This document shows, one piece after another, positions 15,525 to 20,074 of a DNA stretch of 64,000 bases. Position 1 is the first letter of the stretch. Each line of letters starts with the position of its first letter. The stretch is from an uncultured Lachnospiraceae bacterium (GTDB lineage: Bacteria; Bacillota; Clostridia; Lachnospirales; Lachnospiraceae). The notes beneath the pieces are model-generated. The model was given only the letters and a program-made list of their open reading frames with translations, did not search any database and was not told the DNA's origin. A program made the position numbers and the translations under genes. The stretch covers positions 62,001-126,000 of the forward strand of contig CALWIA010000010.1 of NCBI GenBank assembly GCA_944380605.1, in the 5' to 3' direction.

Positions 15525-15726
15525 TGCAAAACCCCGAAATGCCGGTTCTTACTGTTTGACGCCTAGCCAAGCTAGGTGGGCAACCGCACTCTGGCTTCTG
15601 CCTTCCACTCGTACGGAGGCCTGACATCCACCAGAAAATATAGGAATCCCTTATGTCATAATGTAGGTTCAAAGAAAGTAAGAGTTGTCGAACATTCCAG
15701 GAAAACTGCAATAAGATTTGTTCTCT
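15519..15726 (-). ncRNA. ssrS: 6S RNA
   Basis: 6S RNA mimics an open promoter and sequesters SigA RNA polymerase. About 208 bases follow a consensus promoter. The 5' strand has CCTGGAATGTTCG and the 3' strand has CGGCATTTCGGGG; these pair and match the conserved AUGUUCG...GGCAUYUCGG signature seen in E. coli 6S. The ends close by ATCTT/TTGCA pairing with TGCAA/AAGAT, and TCTTAC pairs with GTAAGA further in. A large central region forms smaller hairpins such as CCTAGC-TTG-GCTAGG. The 349-base gap between pdp and the SpoIID-like gene is fully explained by this RNA, its promoter and terminator. Confidence 0.85.
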
Positions 15727-15774: not shown

Positions 15775-17097
15775 TCAAAATCTGTCAATTCCTGCATCGG
15801 AAACCAGCGCGTAAATCAGCTTCCGCTGCGGCGGCTGTTCTGTGCCGATGACAAAAGCCGCGGCCGTTTTTGCTTCTGCTTCCGGGAAACGGGACGGATC
15901 GGAGCTGTGCAGTTTTGCCAGCACATCTCCCGCCTGGACGTATTCGCCGTATTTCCGTTTCAGGATCATGCCGGCCAGCGGGTCCACCGTGTCTTCCTTC
16001 CTGGCCCTTCCGGCTCCCAGAATCATGGAAGCGATGCCGCAGGCCTCCGCGTCCATATGGACAATCCAGCCGCTTTTTAAAGCCCGCACCTCGCGGCAAT
16101 AGGGGGCCTGCCCCAGCCGCTCCGGTTCCCGGATGCAGCCGGCGTCTCCGCCCTGGGCCTCGGTCATGGCCGCCAGCGTGCGCAGGCCGCTGCCATCTTC
16201 CAGGGCTTTTTCAGCCTGGGCCAGACACGCCTCCCGGCTGCCTTTCCCCGCCAGAAACAGCATGCAGGCCGCCAGCTGCAGGCTGACCTGGGTCAGGTCT
16301 TCCGGTCCCCGGCCCTGTAAGACTTCCACGGCTTCTTTTACTTCCAGGGCATTGCCGATGGCATGGCCCAGCGGCACGTCCATATCGGTAATCAGCGCGC
16401 AGCACCGCCGCCCTGCCCGGGTGCCGATGTCCACCATCTCCCGGGCCAGCGCCAGCGAATCTTCCAGGGTTTTCATAAACGCGCCGCTGCCGGTTTTTAC
16501 GTCCAGCACAATGCAGTCGCTGCCAGCCGCCAGCTTTTTGCTCATAATGGAAGAAGCGATCAGCGGAATGCTGTCCACCGTCGCCGTTACGTCCCGCAGG
16601 GCGTAGAGTTTTTTGTCTGCGGGAACCATGTTGCCGGTCTGGCCGATGACGGCGATGCCGGTCTGCCGTACGATTTCAAAAAAACGCTCCCGGGAAACCG
16701 ACGTCTGAAACCCGGGAATGGATTCCAGCTTATCCAGCGTGCCGCCGGTATGGCCCAGGCCGCGGCCGGACATTTTGGCCACCCGGACGCCGCAGGAAGC
16801 CGCTATCGGACCGGCAATCAGCGTAGTCTTGTCTCCCACGCCTCCGGTGCTGTGCTTATCGGCCTTGACGCCGGGTATGGCGGACAAATCCGCCCGGTCC
16901 CCGGAATCCGCCATCTCTTCTGTAAGATATGCGGTTTCTTCTGGATTCATGCCCTGAAAACAGATGGCCATCAGCATGGCGGCCATCTGATAGTCGGGAA
17001 TCTCTCCGCTGACAAAACCGGAAATCATCTGATGAATTTCTTCCCGGCTCAGCGCCCCGCCCCGCTTTTTCTTTTCGATCAGGTCATACATCCGCAT
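15775..17097 (-). CDS. pdp: Pyrimidine-nucleoside phosphorylase
   Basis: Splits thymidine, deoxyuridine or uridine with phosphate to free base and (deoxy)ribose 1-phosphate. The 440-residue protein begins [14 protein letters not shown], with KHSTGGVGDKTTL near 80-92 carrying the phosphate site, and SGRGLGHTGGTLDKLESI near 110. Length is standard. A longer frame reaches 17217, but the ATG at 17095-17097 has AGGGGGGA just upstream and overlaps the end of cdd by 14 bases. Last gene of deoC-cdd-pdp. Confidence 0.95.
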   Translation of the reverse strand: MRMYDLIEKKKRGGALSREEIHQMISGFVSGEIPDYQMAAMLMAICFQGMNPEETAYLTEEMADSGDRADLSAIPGVKADKHSTGGVGDKTTLIAGPIAASCGVRVAKMSGRGLGHTGGTLDKLESIPGFQTSVSRERFFEIVRQTGIAVIGQTGNMVPADKKLYALRDVTATVDSIPLIASSIMSKKLAAGSDCIVLDVKTGSGAFMKTLEDSLALAREMVDIGTRAGRRCCALITDMDVPLGHAIGNALEVKEAVEVLQGRGPEDLTQVSLQLAACMLFLAGKGSREACLAQAEKALEDGSGLRTLAAMTEAQGGDAGCIREPERLGQAPYCREVRALKSGWIVHMDAEACGIASMILGAGRARKEDTVDPLAGMILKRKYGEYVQAGDVLAKLHSSDPSRFPEAEAKTAAAFVIGTEQPPQRKLIYALVSDAGIDRF

Positions 17098-17536
17098 GGG
17101 AATCCCCCCTTTTTGACGGCCCCAGATTTTCCGGTCCGAATCCTTCCGGCAGCAGCTGCCGCAGGGAAAACGTCCGAAACTCCTCCGGAGATTTTGCCAG
17201 CAGAATCTGAAAATCATCCGGGCTGCAGAATTCCCGCATCACCTGGCGGCATACGCCGCAGGGCGCGCAGAAATCCACCGGTGTCCCGTCCGGGCCGCCG
17301 CAGATGGCAATGGCCCGGAAATCCCGTTTTCCATCGCACAGCGCCCGCACAAACGCGCTGCGCTCCGCGCAGATGGTAGGGGAAAACGCGGCGTTTTCAA
17401 TATTAAAGCCGGTATAGACGCTGCCGTCTCCGCATAACAGCGCCGCCGCCACGTGAAACCGTGAATAGGGCGCGTAGGCGCGGGGAAGCGTCTCCCACGC
17501 TTTTTGGATCAGCATTCTGGCTTCGTCCGGGCTCAT
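17084..17536 (-). CDS. cdd: Cytidine deaminase
   Basis: Zinc enzyme converting cytidine and deoxycytidine to uridine and deoxyuridine, feeding the phosphorylase encoded next. The 150-residue protein has [14 protein letters not shown] near 21, [17 protein letters not shown] near 48-64 with the catalytic CAE, and PCGVCRQ near 94 with the two zinc cysteines. It is about 15 residues longer than usual because of a C-terminal tail read over the start of pdp. Its ATG overlaps the deoC stop as ATGA, indicating coupled translation. Confidence 0.95.
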
Positions 17537-18219
17537 GGCGTTTCTCCCTTCTCCGGATTCCGGGAAGCGGCCTCCGCTTTGGCAAGCTTCACGATCCGGC
17601 TGGTACCCAGACGGCTGGCTCCCAGTTCCAGAAACCGCTGCGCGTCCGCAAAGGACGAAATGCCGCCGGCGGCTTTGACTCTGACCTGGGGCCCCACATG
17701 CTGCGCCAGCAGCGCCACATCCTCAAACGTAGCCCCGCCGGTGGAAAATCCGGTGGAAGTTTTGATAAAATCGGCGCCGGATTCCGTTACCACCTGGCAC
17801 ATCCGGATTTTTTCTTCCCGGGTCAGCAGGCAGGTTTCCACGATCACCTTCAGCACCGCGGAGGAACACAGCGTGCGCAGGGACCGGATTTCTTCCAGGA
17901 TCCGGTCATAGCGGCCGCTTTTCAGCCAGCCCAGGTTGATGACCATATCGATCTCCGACGCGCCGTTTTCCAGCGCCTCTTCGGTTTCAAAGGCTTTTAC
18001 CGCCGTGGTATTGTATCCGTTGGGAAATCCGATGACGGTGCAGACCGGCAGCCGTCCCTCCAGATAAGCGGCAGCTTCCGCCACGTAAGAAGGCGGAATG
18101 CAGACCGACGCCGTATGATAAAAAAGCCCGTCGTCGCAGACCTGGCGGATGTCCTCCCAGACAGCGGCAGGATTCAGCAGCGTGTGATCCACTGCCCGAA
18201 AAATCTGTTCCCGATCCAT
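17533..18219 (-). CDS. deoC: Deoxyribose-phosphate aldolase
   Basis: Cleaves deoxyribose 5-phosphate into glyceraldehyde 3-phosphate and acetaldehyde, completing deoxynucleoside breakdown. The 228-residue class I aldolase has DHTLLNP at 11-17, [17 protein letters not shown] near 62-78, EIDMVINLG near 88, [10 protein letters not shown] near 122 and the Schiff-base region [15 protein letters not shown] near 149-163 with the active Lys. AGGGAGG precedes the ATG. First gene of the catabolic operon; a phosphopentomutase is not present in the window. Confidence 0.96.
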
Positions 18220-18232
18220 AACACGCCTCCCT

Positions 18233-19024
18233 TTACACGTCTTCCAGTTCCCGCAGCTGGTACACCTGATATTCCCGGTCGTACACGTAGCCTAGTTTTT
18301 CCGCCAGCCCCACCGACTGCAGGTTCACCGCGTCCCAGTTGGGCACCAGGTTTCTCTCCAGGCACTCCAGCAGAAACGCCGCGCTGCAGGCCAGGGCCAG
18401 TCCCTGTCTGCGGAAGTCCTTGCGGGTGTCCACCTGTATCTCCATCATGCCTTCGCTGGAACCGTAAGCGGAACACCCCGCCGCCAGTTCCCGGCCCTTC
18501 ATGGCCACGTAGCCGAACCCGCTTTCCAGAAAATGTCTGGCGTCTTCAAAGTTGGCGCACAGATCCCGACTCCACTCTTCCTTCAGCGTCAGATGGTACA
18601 GCCGTTCGTCGATGCGGCGGATCCGGATGCCTTTGGGCACCGCGTCAATATATCCTTTCAGCACATCCATATCAAAATGATGCTCGTCCTTTTTCAGGGC
18701 GTACCGGCTGACCAGCCGCAGCTGGCCGGAGAAGGTGTCTTCCAGCCAGTCCTTCCAGCGGTCGTCCGCCGGATACAGGTAGGCGCGGGAAGCCGATTCG
18801 TAGATCTGGCTCTTCAAATCCAGCGCCGGAGCTCCTTTGGGCGGAAGGCCGAACAGGTAGGCAAAGTCTCCGGTGACAATCAGACAATAGGAGGAATTTT
18901 CCAGTTTCGGAACCCAGACCCGGCCCATTGTTCCTTCTACGGCGCCCCGCACCAGAACCTCTCTGCTCCCCTCGCACAGGGAACGTATGGAATCTCGTTT
19001 CTTTCTGCCCAGTTCAATCATCAT
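18233..19024 (-). CDS. GNAT-type acetyltransferase (PF12746-like)
   Basis: A 263-residue protein resembling the GNAT_acetyltran family of Firmicutes. The C-terminal half carries the acetyl-CoA signature: [22 protein letters not shown] near 200-220, with RRQGLA in place of the RxxGxG/A loop. The substrate is unknown. Two starts are possible. The ATG at 19022-19024 is ten bases from AGGAGG, whereas the earlier one at 19033 is one base away, so the shorter form is preferred. It ends 13 bases before deoC and may be cotranscribed with it. Confidence 0.8.
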
Positions 19025-19069
19025 GAAAGTCATTCCTCCTTTGCGCAGATATTGCTGCAGAAGCAGTGC

Positions 19070-19256
19070 GCGGGCTTGCGCCGCCTGCGCAGTGCGCGCT
19101 CGGGAACTTCGTTTCCTCGCTCACGGGCTTGCGCCGCTCTCCGACGGCGCAGTGCGCGCTCGGAAACTTCGTTTCCTCGCTCACGGGCTTGCGCCGCTCT
19201 CCGACGGCGCAGTGCACGCTCGGGAACTTCGTTCCCTCGCTCACGGGCTTGCGCCC
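19070..19256. repeat. Tandem 60-bp repeat, three copies, with hairpins
   Basis: Copies at 19081-19140, 19141-19200 and 19201-19255 are nearly identical, preceded by a partial copy from 19070. Each has a GGRAAC-TTC-GTTYCC hairpin (19102-19116, 19162-19176, 19222-19236). At the third pair the copies show G-T, A-T and G-C, so base pairing is kept. A second hairpin, GCGCCG-N8-CGGCGC, lies at 19131-19150 and 19191-19210. The period is a multiple of three, which keeps frames open on both strands, but no ribosome-binding site supports a protein. Confidence 0.85.
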
Positions 19257-19356
19257 TATGGCATCTGCCAGCTGTCTGGATGCTTACGTGCAAGCACGAC
19301 GCATCCACGACCACTGTCATCTGCCGCACTGCTTAATGCATTCGTGAACATTATAC

Positions 19357-19377
19357 CATGTCTGCTGCGCAGACATG
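19357..19377. repeat. Intergenic 9-bp palindrome
   Basis: CATGTCTGC and GCAGACATG around TGC. Part of the 525-base gene-free region 19025-19549, which besides the 60-bp repeats and palindromes holds a further CGGTTCGG...CCGAACCG inverted pair (19400-19440) and no gene I can support. Confidence 0.6.
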
Positions 19378-19444
19378 AACCCTCCGGGGGATGCGCACGG
19401 TTCGGTTCGGAGTTTACCTCGCTTTGCTCGGCCCGAACCGGCGC

Positions 19445-19472
19445 TGGTATAATATCTTTCGATATTATACCA
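19445..19472. repeat. 12-bp perfect inverted repeat upstream of the ECF sigma gene
   Basis: TGGTATAATATC and GATATTATACCA with a TTTC loop, about 78 bases before the sigma factor GTG. It contains TATAAT-like sequence on both strands, so it may be a hairpin or an operator overlapping promoters. Confidence 0.65.
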
Positions 19473-19549
19473 TAAATTAAATCTTCTGGGGAGGATATTT
19501 TTTTGAAGACAAATGGGAGAATGATTCGTTATAATGGGCAGGAAGGGAG

Positions 19550-20074
19550 GTGAGGAGAACGAGCCCTGATAAACAGCTGGAACTTTGGATTGACCGGTAC
19601 CAGAATCTGATCTATTCCATATGTTTCCAGATGACGCGGGATTCTTTTGAAGCCCAGGACCTGACGCAGGAAACGTTTCTTTCCGCGTACAGGCGGTGCG
19701 CCTTTTTTGACGGCGCCAATGAGAAAGCCTGGCTGTGCCGCATTGCCGCCAACAAGTGCCTGGATTATCTGAAAGCGGCCGGCCGAAGGCAGATTCCTAC
19801 GGAGGAGCTTTTTTTCCTCGCCAGCGGGAAATCCGACGAAGAACCGGAACGGCAGTATACCCAGCAGGAAACGAAGCAGGAACTGTACCAGTGCTGCATG
19901 AAGCTGAAGCCGCCGTACCGGGACGCTGCCCTGGATTATTTTTACCGGGAAATGACCATTCGGGAAATGGCGGAAAAGACCGGTGAGAATCCAAAAACGC
20001 TGCAGACCCGCGTATACCGCGCCAGGGCCTTGCTGCGGAACCTGTATCGAAAGGAGGACCTTCTGAATGGATAA
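19550..20074 (+). CDS. ECF-type sigma-70 family RNA polymerase sigma factor
   Basis: A 174-residue sigma factor with only regions 2 and 4. Region 2 is LIYSICFQMTRDSFEAQDLTQETFLSAYRR near 20-50 (the DLTQETF core-binding motif), and region 4 is near 115-165 (REMAEKTGENPKTLQTRVYRARALL helix-turn-helix). The start is GTG at 19550; upstream the frame closes at 19532. AGGAAGGGAG lies immediately ahead, giving short spacing, so the start is less certain than the frame. It overlaps the downstream anti-sigma-like gene by 8 bases. Which genes it controls is unknown. Confidence 0.9.
   Translation: MRRTSPDKQLELWIDRYQNLIYSICFQMTRDSFEAQDLTQETFLSAYRRCAFFDGANEKAWLCRIAANKCLDYLKAAGRRQIPTEELFFLASGKSDEEPERQYTQQETKQELYQCCMKLKPPYRDAALDYFYREMTIREMAEKTGENPKTLQTRVYRARALLRNLYRKEDLLNG

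Follow-up and report, generated by a model that had tools for sequence, protein, structure and literature searches.

A dispersed four-helix RNA with tandem 60-bp duplications of its 3' half lies in sense at the start of many Lachnospiraceae transcription units

Introduction

A short intergenic region in an uncultured Lachnospiraceae bacterium (GenBank assembly GCA_944380605.1) carries three tandem 60-bp units, which raises the question of what the units are, on which strand they are read, and which gene they accompany. The initial annotation of this DNA placed them beside an ECF sigma operon and offered three readings: a structured RNA, a DNA-binding array, or a mobile palindromic repeat. We studied the units in a 64,000-nt stretch of DNA (contig CALWIA010000010.1, positions 62,001 to 126,000; hereafter, the window), in the host genome (2.53 Mb, 93.6% complete, 34 contigs), and in genomes of the same genus, family, and class.

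Results

The 60-bp units duplicate the 3' half of a four-helix RNA

We found three 60-nt copies without gaps at positions 19081 to 19260, with 95% and 85% identity to the first copy. Tandem Repeats Finder reported the array at 19087 to 19255 (period 60, 2.8 copies, 96% matches) with a score of 317, the highest of its seven rows in the window, the others scoring 50 or less; the exact-period, three-copy array described initially was thus borne out. Both hairpins described with it are present, GGRAAC-TTC-GTTYCC in all three copies and GCGCCG/CGGCGC twice. On the plus strand, the third pair of the former does read G-T, A-T, and G-C, as claimed, but the further claim that the three copies preserve pairing failed: the G-T copy is an A.C mismatch on the transcribed minus strand (GGAAAC-GAA-GTTCCC at 19102 to 19120), so that, taken alone, the three tandem copies say little about preserved pairing. 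The covariation that does exist comes from other loci.

The array was also said to contain neither ORFs nor spacers. Spacers are indeed absent; ORFs do cross it, since a 60-nt period spans exactly 20 codons and keeps the frame. Long ORFs run through the repeats at 18533 to 19336 and 18987 to 19475 on the plus strand and at 19030 to 19329 on the minus strand, and such ORFs probably get annotated as spurious hypothetical proteins. We rejected a protein-coding repeat, given that four array-crossing ORFs have no Pfam family, and a CRISPR array, given that the units are contiguous, without spacers or variable inserts.

Read in register, copies of the element share one layout, on the strand opposite to the one that had been read. 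From 5' to 3', ATGGTATAAT comes first and, a few nucleotides on, CACGAAAGCATTAAGCAGTGC; next are a hairpin that is long and variable and CATAGGGCGCAAGCCCGTGAGCGAGG.AACGAAGTT.CCGAGCGCGCACTGCG. The last ~60 nt then recur 0 to 2 more times, ahead of an SD and a start codon. What the array repeats is the 3' half (P3, P4, and the 3' strand of P1, hereafter P1') of a four-helix minus-strand RNA of ~130 nt (Table 1). The initial annotation was mistaken about both the strand of the repeats and the gene they accompany: the element points away from the ECF sigma operon, into GNAT-deoC-cdd-pyn.

Table 1. Features of the leader RNA and its surroundings (window positions)
Feature	Position	Strand	Remark
ECF sigma gene (Pfam Sigma70_r2)	19550-20074	+	Adjoins the element but diverges from it
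Extended -10 TATGGTATAAT	19464-19474	-	Outer edge of inserted DNA
Module B	19360-19475	-	Different dispersed hairpin-rich repeat, upstream of RNA
-10 element ATGGTATAAT	19350-19359	-	Directly before RNA
-10 and four-helix RNA	19208-19359	-	Full-length match to covariance model R1, 181 bits
P1 5' strand	19326-19332	-	GCAGTGC
P2	19260-19325	-	Long covarying hairpin, apex GTGCTTGCAC
P3	19245-19256	-	GGGC-GCAA-GCCC, near-invariant tetraloop hairpin
P4	19218-19240	-	GCGAGGGAAC-GAA-GTTCCCGAGC, covarying hairpin; the first hairpin of the initial annotation
P1 3' strand (P1')	19209-19215	-	GCACTGC
Extra 60-bp unit 1	19148-19208	-	Copy of P3, P4, and P1'; stretch begins one base before the unit
Extra 60-bp unit 2	19088-19147	-	P4 with one A.C mismatch
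Remnant of further unit	19060-19087	-	GGCGCAAGCCC ... GCACTGC
GNAT acetyltransferase gene	18233-19033	-	Headed by the leader; orthologs begin at inner ATGATG near 19024
deoC	17533-18219	-	
Cytidine deaminase gene (cdd)	17084-17536	-	
Pyrimidine-nucleoside phosphorylase gene (pyn)	15775-17217	-	

We counted duplications in 17 host copies, 54 of 61 genus copies, and 76 of 86 family copies. The 3' half is repeated downstream in 11, 16, and 20 of them, respectively, and the 5' half in 1, 7, and 8. An upstream repeat of the 3' half occurs in none of the 147 copies, and shuffled flanks never contained the 3' half. The 60-bp units are local, polarized duplications of this half, placed invariably downstream of the RNA and ahead of the gene. 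Each unit in the window keeps a P1' strand, and a thermodynamic fold of the whole window leader predicts that P1 pairs with the last of four P1' strands (mean probability 0.94).

The RNA is dispersed in the host genome and across the family

Searched against the host genome, a 187-bp query gave 21 matches and the whole intergenic region 43, while the 16-mer CTCACGGGCTTGCGCC, with up to two mismatches, gave 36 matches versus none for a reversed control. The covariance model found 17 full copies and one truncated copy (L014/L091) there, which excludes a single degenerate duplication without other copies. The initial annotation had suggested a copy-number search and a covariance model, and the model (R1) matches copies both in the host and in relatives. 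In a first set of 41 genomes, at least 25 match R1 among the matches listed: 24 of 25 of the same genus (host included) and 1 of 16 from other families. Across the host family, R1 matches 121 of 397 genomes, in 112 of 334 genera; across the class, it matches 13 of 391, five of them outside the host family. Both of these scans scored seven candidates per genome, so their copy numbers are lower bounds. A degenerate pattern matched at least 113 stretches, in records titled Lacrimispora, Hungatella, Enterocloster, Cuneatibacter, Parablautia, and Lachnoclostridium, among others, and, among the stretches listed, in Roseburia, Coprococcus, Dorea, and Merdimonas MAGs. Applied to 90 of the pattern loci, R1 gave 93 matches, of which 84 were used for gene orientation and nine, truncated or partial, were left out. 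The copies counted throughout are loci, not independent events.

Many copies are inherited in place. Thirty cross-species pairs of copies share flanking genes, and their elements are more alike than unrelated pairs (identity 0.83 versus 0.65). At some orthologous places (L288, L294, L312) the elements are dissimilar; therefore, replacement or re-insertion also occurs. Of 61 copies, 49 have their nearest relative in another species; the 12 whose nearest relative shares their genome compare to a shuffled mean of 6.0 and a maximum of 17, and we rejected a recent within-genome expansion in the relatives on this ground.

The fold is under selection for pairing

We aligned the 17 full host copies with MAFFT, without using structure and leaving out the truncated eighteenth. 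RNAalifold gave 37 pairs, 16 of them with both sides changed, and 98.9% of cells paired. None of 500 shuffles reached the observed percentage paired, number of both-side pairs, number of both-side cells, or covariation score; the count of further pair types, reached by 429 of the 500, is not distinctive. Sliding the pair partners leaves only 1 to 4 both-side pairs. P3 is a 4-bp tetraloop hairpin in all 17 copies, and the fold of the window copy has a z-score of -6.3 on the minus strand (19208 to 19341) and -5.4 on the plus strand.

Two wider alignments were fitted to the covariance model and lean towards the structure: in one, of 68 sequences drawn from nine further species of the genus, both sides changed in 29 of the 37 pairs, and in the other, of the 93 family-wide matches, the covariation score was 0.534 versus 0.127 when shuffled. 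Both-side pairs in the latter were close to expectation (26 versus 23.7 shuffled), 6 of 500 shuffles reaching 26. The three alignments together have 119 G.U cells versus 34 A.C cells, and the structure-free one alone has 7 versus 0; the element (minus) strand is therefore the RNA strand. Of 71 base pairs that changed between orthologous loci, 48 retain their pairing, compared to 18% in a neutral simulation (maximum 31%). This count comes from 20 hand-chosen pairs of the 30; the other ten are third group members and low-identity pairs, some of which are perhaps replacements rather than descent. The structured-RNA reading is thus strongly supported: the element is a folded RNA under selection for pairing, in sense at the start of many transcription units.

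Most copies follow a -10 and precede a gene on the same strand

Ahead of the CACG core, at a distance of 0 to 6 nt, a -10 with at least five of six matches is present in 13 of 13 host copies, 27 of 30 copies from the genus, and 74 of 85 from the family, compared to 5 to 9% of control windows; scoring was limited to anchor-pattern copies (13 of 17, 30 of 61, and 85 of 86, respectively). The gap between -10 and core is usually 3 nt, sometimes 0 to 1, and a -35-like hexamer is modestly enriched upstream. A promoter is not obligatory, because eleven family copies lack a -10. In five of these (L152, L162, L175, L193, L208), the T-tract of an apparent intrinsic terminator directly precedes the element; the others are L147, L149, L151, L197, L207, and L212. 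The five copies after T-tracts keep the same polarity, and T-tract and -10 are both transcript ends.

All 18 host copies are followed by a gene on their own strand. For 84 family copies, the next gene is on the same strand in 62, opposite in 5, and undecidable in 17; for 61 genus copies (of 68 rows), the counts are 44, 6, and 11. The opposite-strand calls come from a crude ORF caller, which missed the right start at the window copy and at L079, L081, and L083, where we placed starts by hand. P1 lies a median of 127 nt, and typically 50 to 240 nt, from the start codon in the 84 family copies. In the window leader, there is no terminator-like site between the RNA and the gene.

The host genes headed by the RNA are unrelated to one another, and many are housekeeping genes (dnaE, holB, pyrH, murA, and an S1-like gene). 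The others encode a response regulator, GlgC, a protein with a weak nucleotidyltransferase match, a histidine kinase, a pectinesterase, an MgsA/RarA-type AAA ATPase, a cytidylate kinase-like protein, a phosphorylase, an SH3 protein, a DUF3298 protein, Asp23, and, at L087, a protein without a Pfam family. Among 57 proteins downstream of family copies, we found 100 Pfam families, the commonest in four proteins. No regulatory logic is visible, because the downstream genes have no common function, and we rejected a ligand or riboswitch theme since neither these 57 proteins nor the host genes share a metabolic one. A type III toxin-antitoxin RNA was considered as well; no ToxN-type toxin is among the families downstream of host copies.

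The element was added upstream of the GNAT gene in the host

A GNAT ortholog is present in all 26 genus genomes, and the full element lies upstream of it in the host only (1 of 26); a further ortholog (L245) has a low-scoring element fragment (18.9 bits) after TATACT. On this evidence we rejected a conserved leader of the GNAT gene itself, and because orthologs in 25 other species of the genus lack the full element, the gene does not need it. The divergent GNAT/ECF intergenic regions of L263, L267, and L268 align with the window and lack the element; L265 aligned poorly. In the first three, a -10 (TATGGTAAAAT, TATGGTAAAAT, and TGTGGTATACT, respectively) aligns to the window TATGGTATAAT at 19474 to 19464, and a short native leader follows directly. 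Since the -10 occupies the same aligned place where there is no element, ~380 bp (module B, the RNA, and the extra units) were added between the ancestral promoter and the SD. In four GNAT orthologs (L248, L249, L250, L252), a single in-frame TGA falls within the match. A 6S RNA (RF00013, 73.5 bits) closely follows the operon, at 15527 to 15706 on the minus strand.

Module B opens with a TATGGTATAATATCGAAAGATATTATACCA palindrome and is a separate dispersed repeat. It has at least 16 matches in the host genome and, among the matches listed, occurs in 20 of 26 genus genomes, with up to 30 per genome; it is sometimes tandem, at ~114-bp steps (G013:C52, G018:C11). A third module (gagcgcttggcgaggttttttcgagcctagtgcga...agcagacatggtataat) is found at L018 366-460 and L010 1415-1520, where it begins and ends at GGTATAAT. 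It can stack between other modules, and the module joints are extended -10 sequences.

The RNA resembles Clostridiales-1

No known RNA family matched the array region at its own cut-off. Clostridiales-1 (RF01699) scored 23.3 to 29.6 bits in four of six host loci and is not listed for the other two; one of the six, L018, holds no copy of the window RNA. The RF01699 model aligns end to end (model 1-166) with the window copy at 19.5 bits and with L359 at 40.5 bits. Its best score elsewhere in the genus is 47.8 bits, at L357 in a genome search; an ordinary cmscan of L357 gave no RF01699 match, perhaps owing to filter handling. R1 scores L359 and L357 at 94 and 98 bits. All copies scored miss the Rfam gathering cut-off of 48 bits for membership, and the similarity suggests a distant relative of Clostridiales-1 within the same superfamily.

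True Clostridiales-1 RNAs occur in the host genome (five matches over the cut-off, in three places) and in 15 of 26 genus genomes. We analyzed 19 strong loci of 30. The next gene is on the same strand at 12, opposite at 6, and missing at 1. A -10 that reaches 5 of 6 matches occurs at 7 of the 19 (control 7.5%), a weaker signal than for the window RNA. Seven loci (L338, L339, L341, L351, L355, L362, L364), in mixed orientation to genes, have terminal inverted repeats of ~21 bp (GATGCCAGGGTCAAAAGGT type) around a unit of 182 to 193 bp. In the target-duplication test, run on these seven, the 7-bp flanks are identical in five, agree at 6 of 7 bases in one, and are out of register in one; mismatched flank pairings agree on average at 3.5 of 7. 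Therefore, part of Clostridiales-1 is MITE-like. The window element family shows no excess of target duplications (5% versus 6.5% in mismatched flanks, n = 120), and the ends of the element are paired by P1 (7 bp) alone, without further inverted ends in the copy alignment. The Y1 transposase (PF01797) has no match in 16 of the 26 genus genomes, among them the host genome, at its 93.6% completeness, and we rejected an IS200/605 mover because the host gave no match.

Discussion

We consider it probable that the window element is a dispersed, promoter-proximal leader RNA of the Clostridiales-1 superfamily that acts in cis on the mRNA it heads. The -10 at 19350 to 19359 would start minus-strand transcription near 19343. 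The nascent RNA would fold into a four-helix junction closed by P1, with a long P2 (apex GUGCUUGCAC), a P3 of the form GGGC-GNRA-like-GCCC, and a P4 flanked by GA/GA. Meeting no terminator, the mRNA would continue through the extra P3-P4-P1' copies into the SD and start codon of GNAT-deoC-cdd-pyn, each extra unit adding a P1' strand able to close P1 around a larger structure. The same RNA heads 17 other genes in the host genome. Such a general-purpose leader would most likely shield the 5' end from decay and insulate or tune elongation or initiation. A ligand-specific switch is less likely, because the downstream genes share no theme. That P1 is closed near the start and that the leader is indifferent to gene function both agree with a role in protecting the 5' end and insulating the SD; antitermination fits nearly as well.

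Alternatively, the element could be a selfish, non-autonomous interspersed repeat of the BOX or MITE kind, whose fold serves mobility and whose place at 5' ends reflects target preference or tolerance without benefit to the host. It is dispersed, modular, and internally duplicated, it is absent at orthologous GNAT sites, the genes downstream have no theme, and of the seven true Clostridiales-1 relatives that bear 21-bp terminal inverted repeats, five have exact 7-bp target duplications. The initial annotation's mobile palindromic repeat is partly right, in that the element is dispersed and has such relatives, but the window element is not palindromic, shows neither a target duplication (5% versus 6.5%, n = 120) nor, in the copy alignment, a terminal inverted repeat, and has many copies inherited at orthologous places. 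Its host has no Y1 transposase, and nearest relatives in other species (49 of 61) are the reverse of what recent bursts would leave. A purely selfish repeat is hard to square with the sense orientation (62 versus 5 in family copies) and with the retention of orthologous copies through compensatory changes, and we judge it unlikely.

The RNA might instead modify RNA polymerase soon after initiation and thereby let it pass pausing or Rho-type sites within the operon, in the manner of processive-antitermination leaders of the put-, EAR-, or LoaP-like kind. Its place right after the start site, its compact multi-helix fold, the absence of its own terminator, and the diverse operons downstream would suit this role; many copies, however, head genes without visible need of it, and some lie after terminators, not before them, which makes the role quite improbable. 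The weak similarity to RF01699, which Rfam types as "Gene; sRNA", would allow a trans-acting small RNA made from many loci, with incidental read-through into genes. The missing terminator between RNA and gene in the window and the sense placement, with a start codon typically 50 to 240 nt downstream, render this highly improbable. We give hardly any credence to a DNA-level device such as a protein-binding array or transcription-factor sites: the tandem 60-bp spacing would suit one, but base pairs are conserved rather than letters, P2 and P4 changing in sequence while keeping their pairing, and G.U exceeds A.C on one strand. The DNA-binding array proposed initially accordingly found no support.

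As a tentative and somewhat unlikely scenario, a mobile structured RNA lineage may have been domesticated, Clostridiales-1 being the MITE, in mixed orientation, and its end-less sister a family-wide general-purpose leader behind housekeeping -10s, varied in size by duplication of the 3' half. If so, a transposon-derived 5' UTR module would be in use across a bacterial family. Clostridiales-1 has been a structure without a function since 2010, and the sister family offers a consistent place for one: at the start of mRNAs, in sense, before core genes. It is also a test system, with many natural copies per cell and selection for pairing at orthologous loci. If the leader acts in cis, a large share of the Lachnospiraceae, which are dominant gut bacteria, share a common mRNA leader, for which we found no assay in the literature, and their gene annotations may contain spurious repeat ORFs. 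The Clostridiales-1 copies with terminal inverted repeats suggest that some Rfam "sRNA genes" are mobile elements.

In the literature available to us, partly as excerpts, we found no paper on the window element, and the relevant mention of Clostridiales-1 there is a table row that lists it as not cis-regulatory (Weinberg et al. 2010, PMC2864571). The motif may be among the 3161 candidate RNAs from human microbiomes that PMC8040213 reports. Like Clostridiales-1, the window RNA has a closing P1, a long P2 with a GUGCUUGCAC-type apex, P3, and P4 with purine internal loops, in the same order, and true Clostridiales-1 copies in the same genome are also partly duplicated in tandem. It differs in P3, a 4-bp tetraloop hairpin in place of a long bulged arm, and in showing none of the ~183-bp units, terminal inverted repeats, and 7-bp target duplications of some Clostridiales-1 RNAs in the genus.

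REP/RAYT and other IS200/IS605-linked palindromes are likewise multicopy intergenic hairpin DNA; the window element differs from REP/RAYT in being a four-helix RNA, not a single palindrome. BOX of Streptococcus pneumoniae (PMC3049150) is also dispersed, structured, multicopy, and often transcribed, and it too contains an internal tandem unit whose number varies. BOX is enriched between convergent genes and bears both terminal inverted repeats and target duplications; the window element, unlike BOX, lies in sense ahead of genes, shows no target duplication, and retains compensatory changes where copies are orthologous. MITE-derived small RNAs such as those of Coxiella (PMC5896051) share with it the idea that small mobile elements yield functional RNAs, but on the window element we detected neither inverted repeats nor target duplications.
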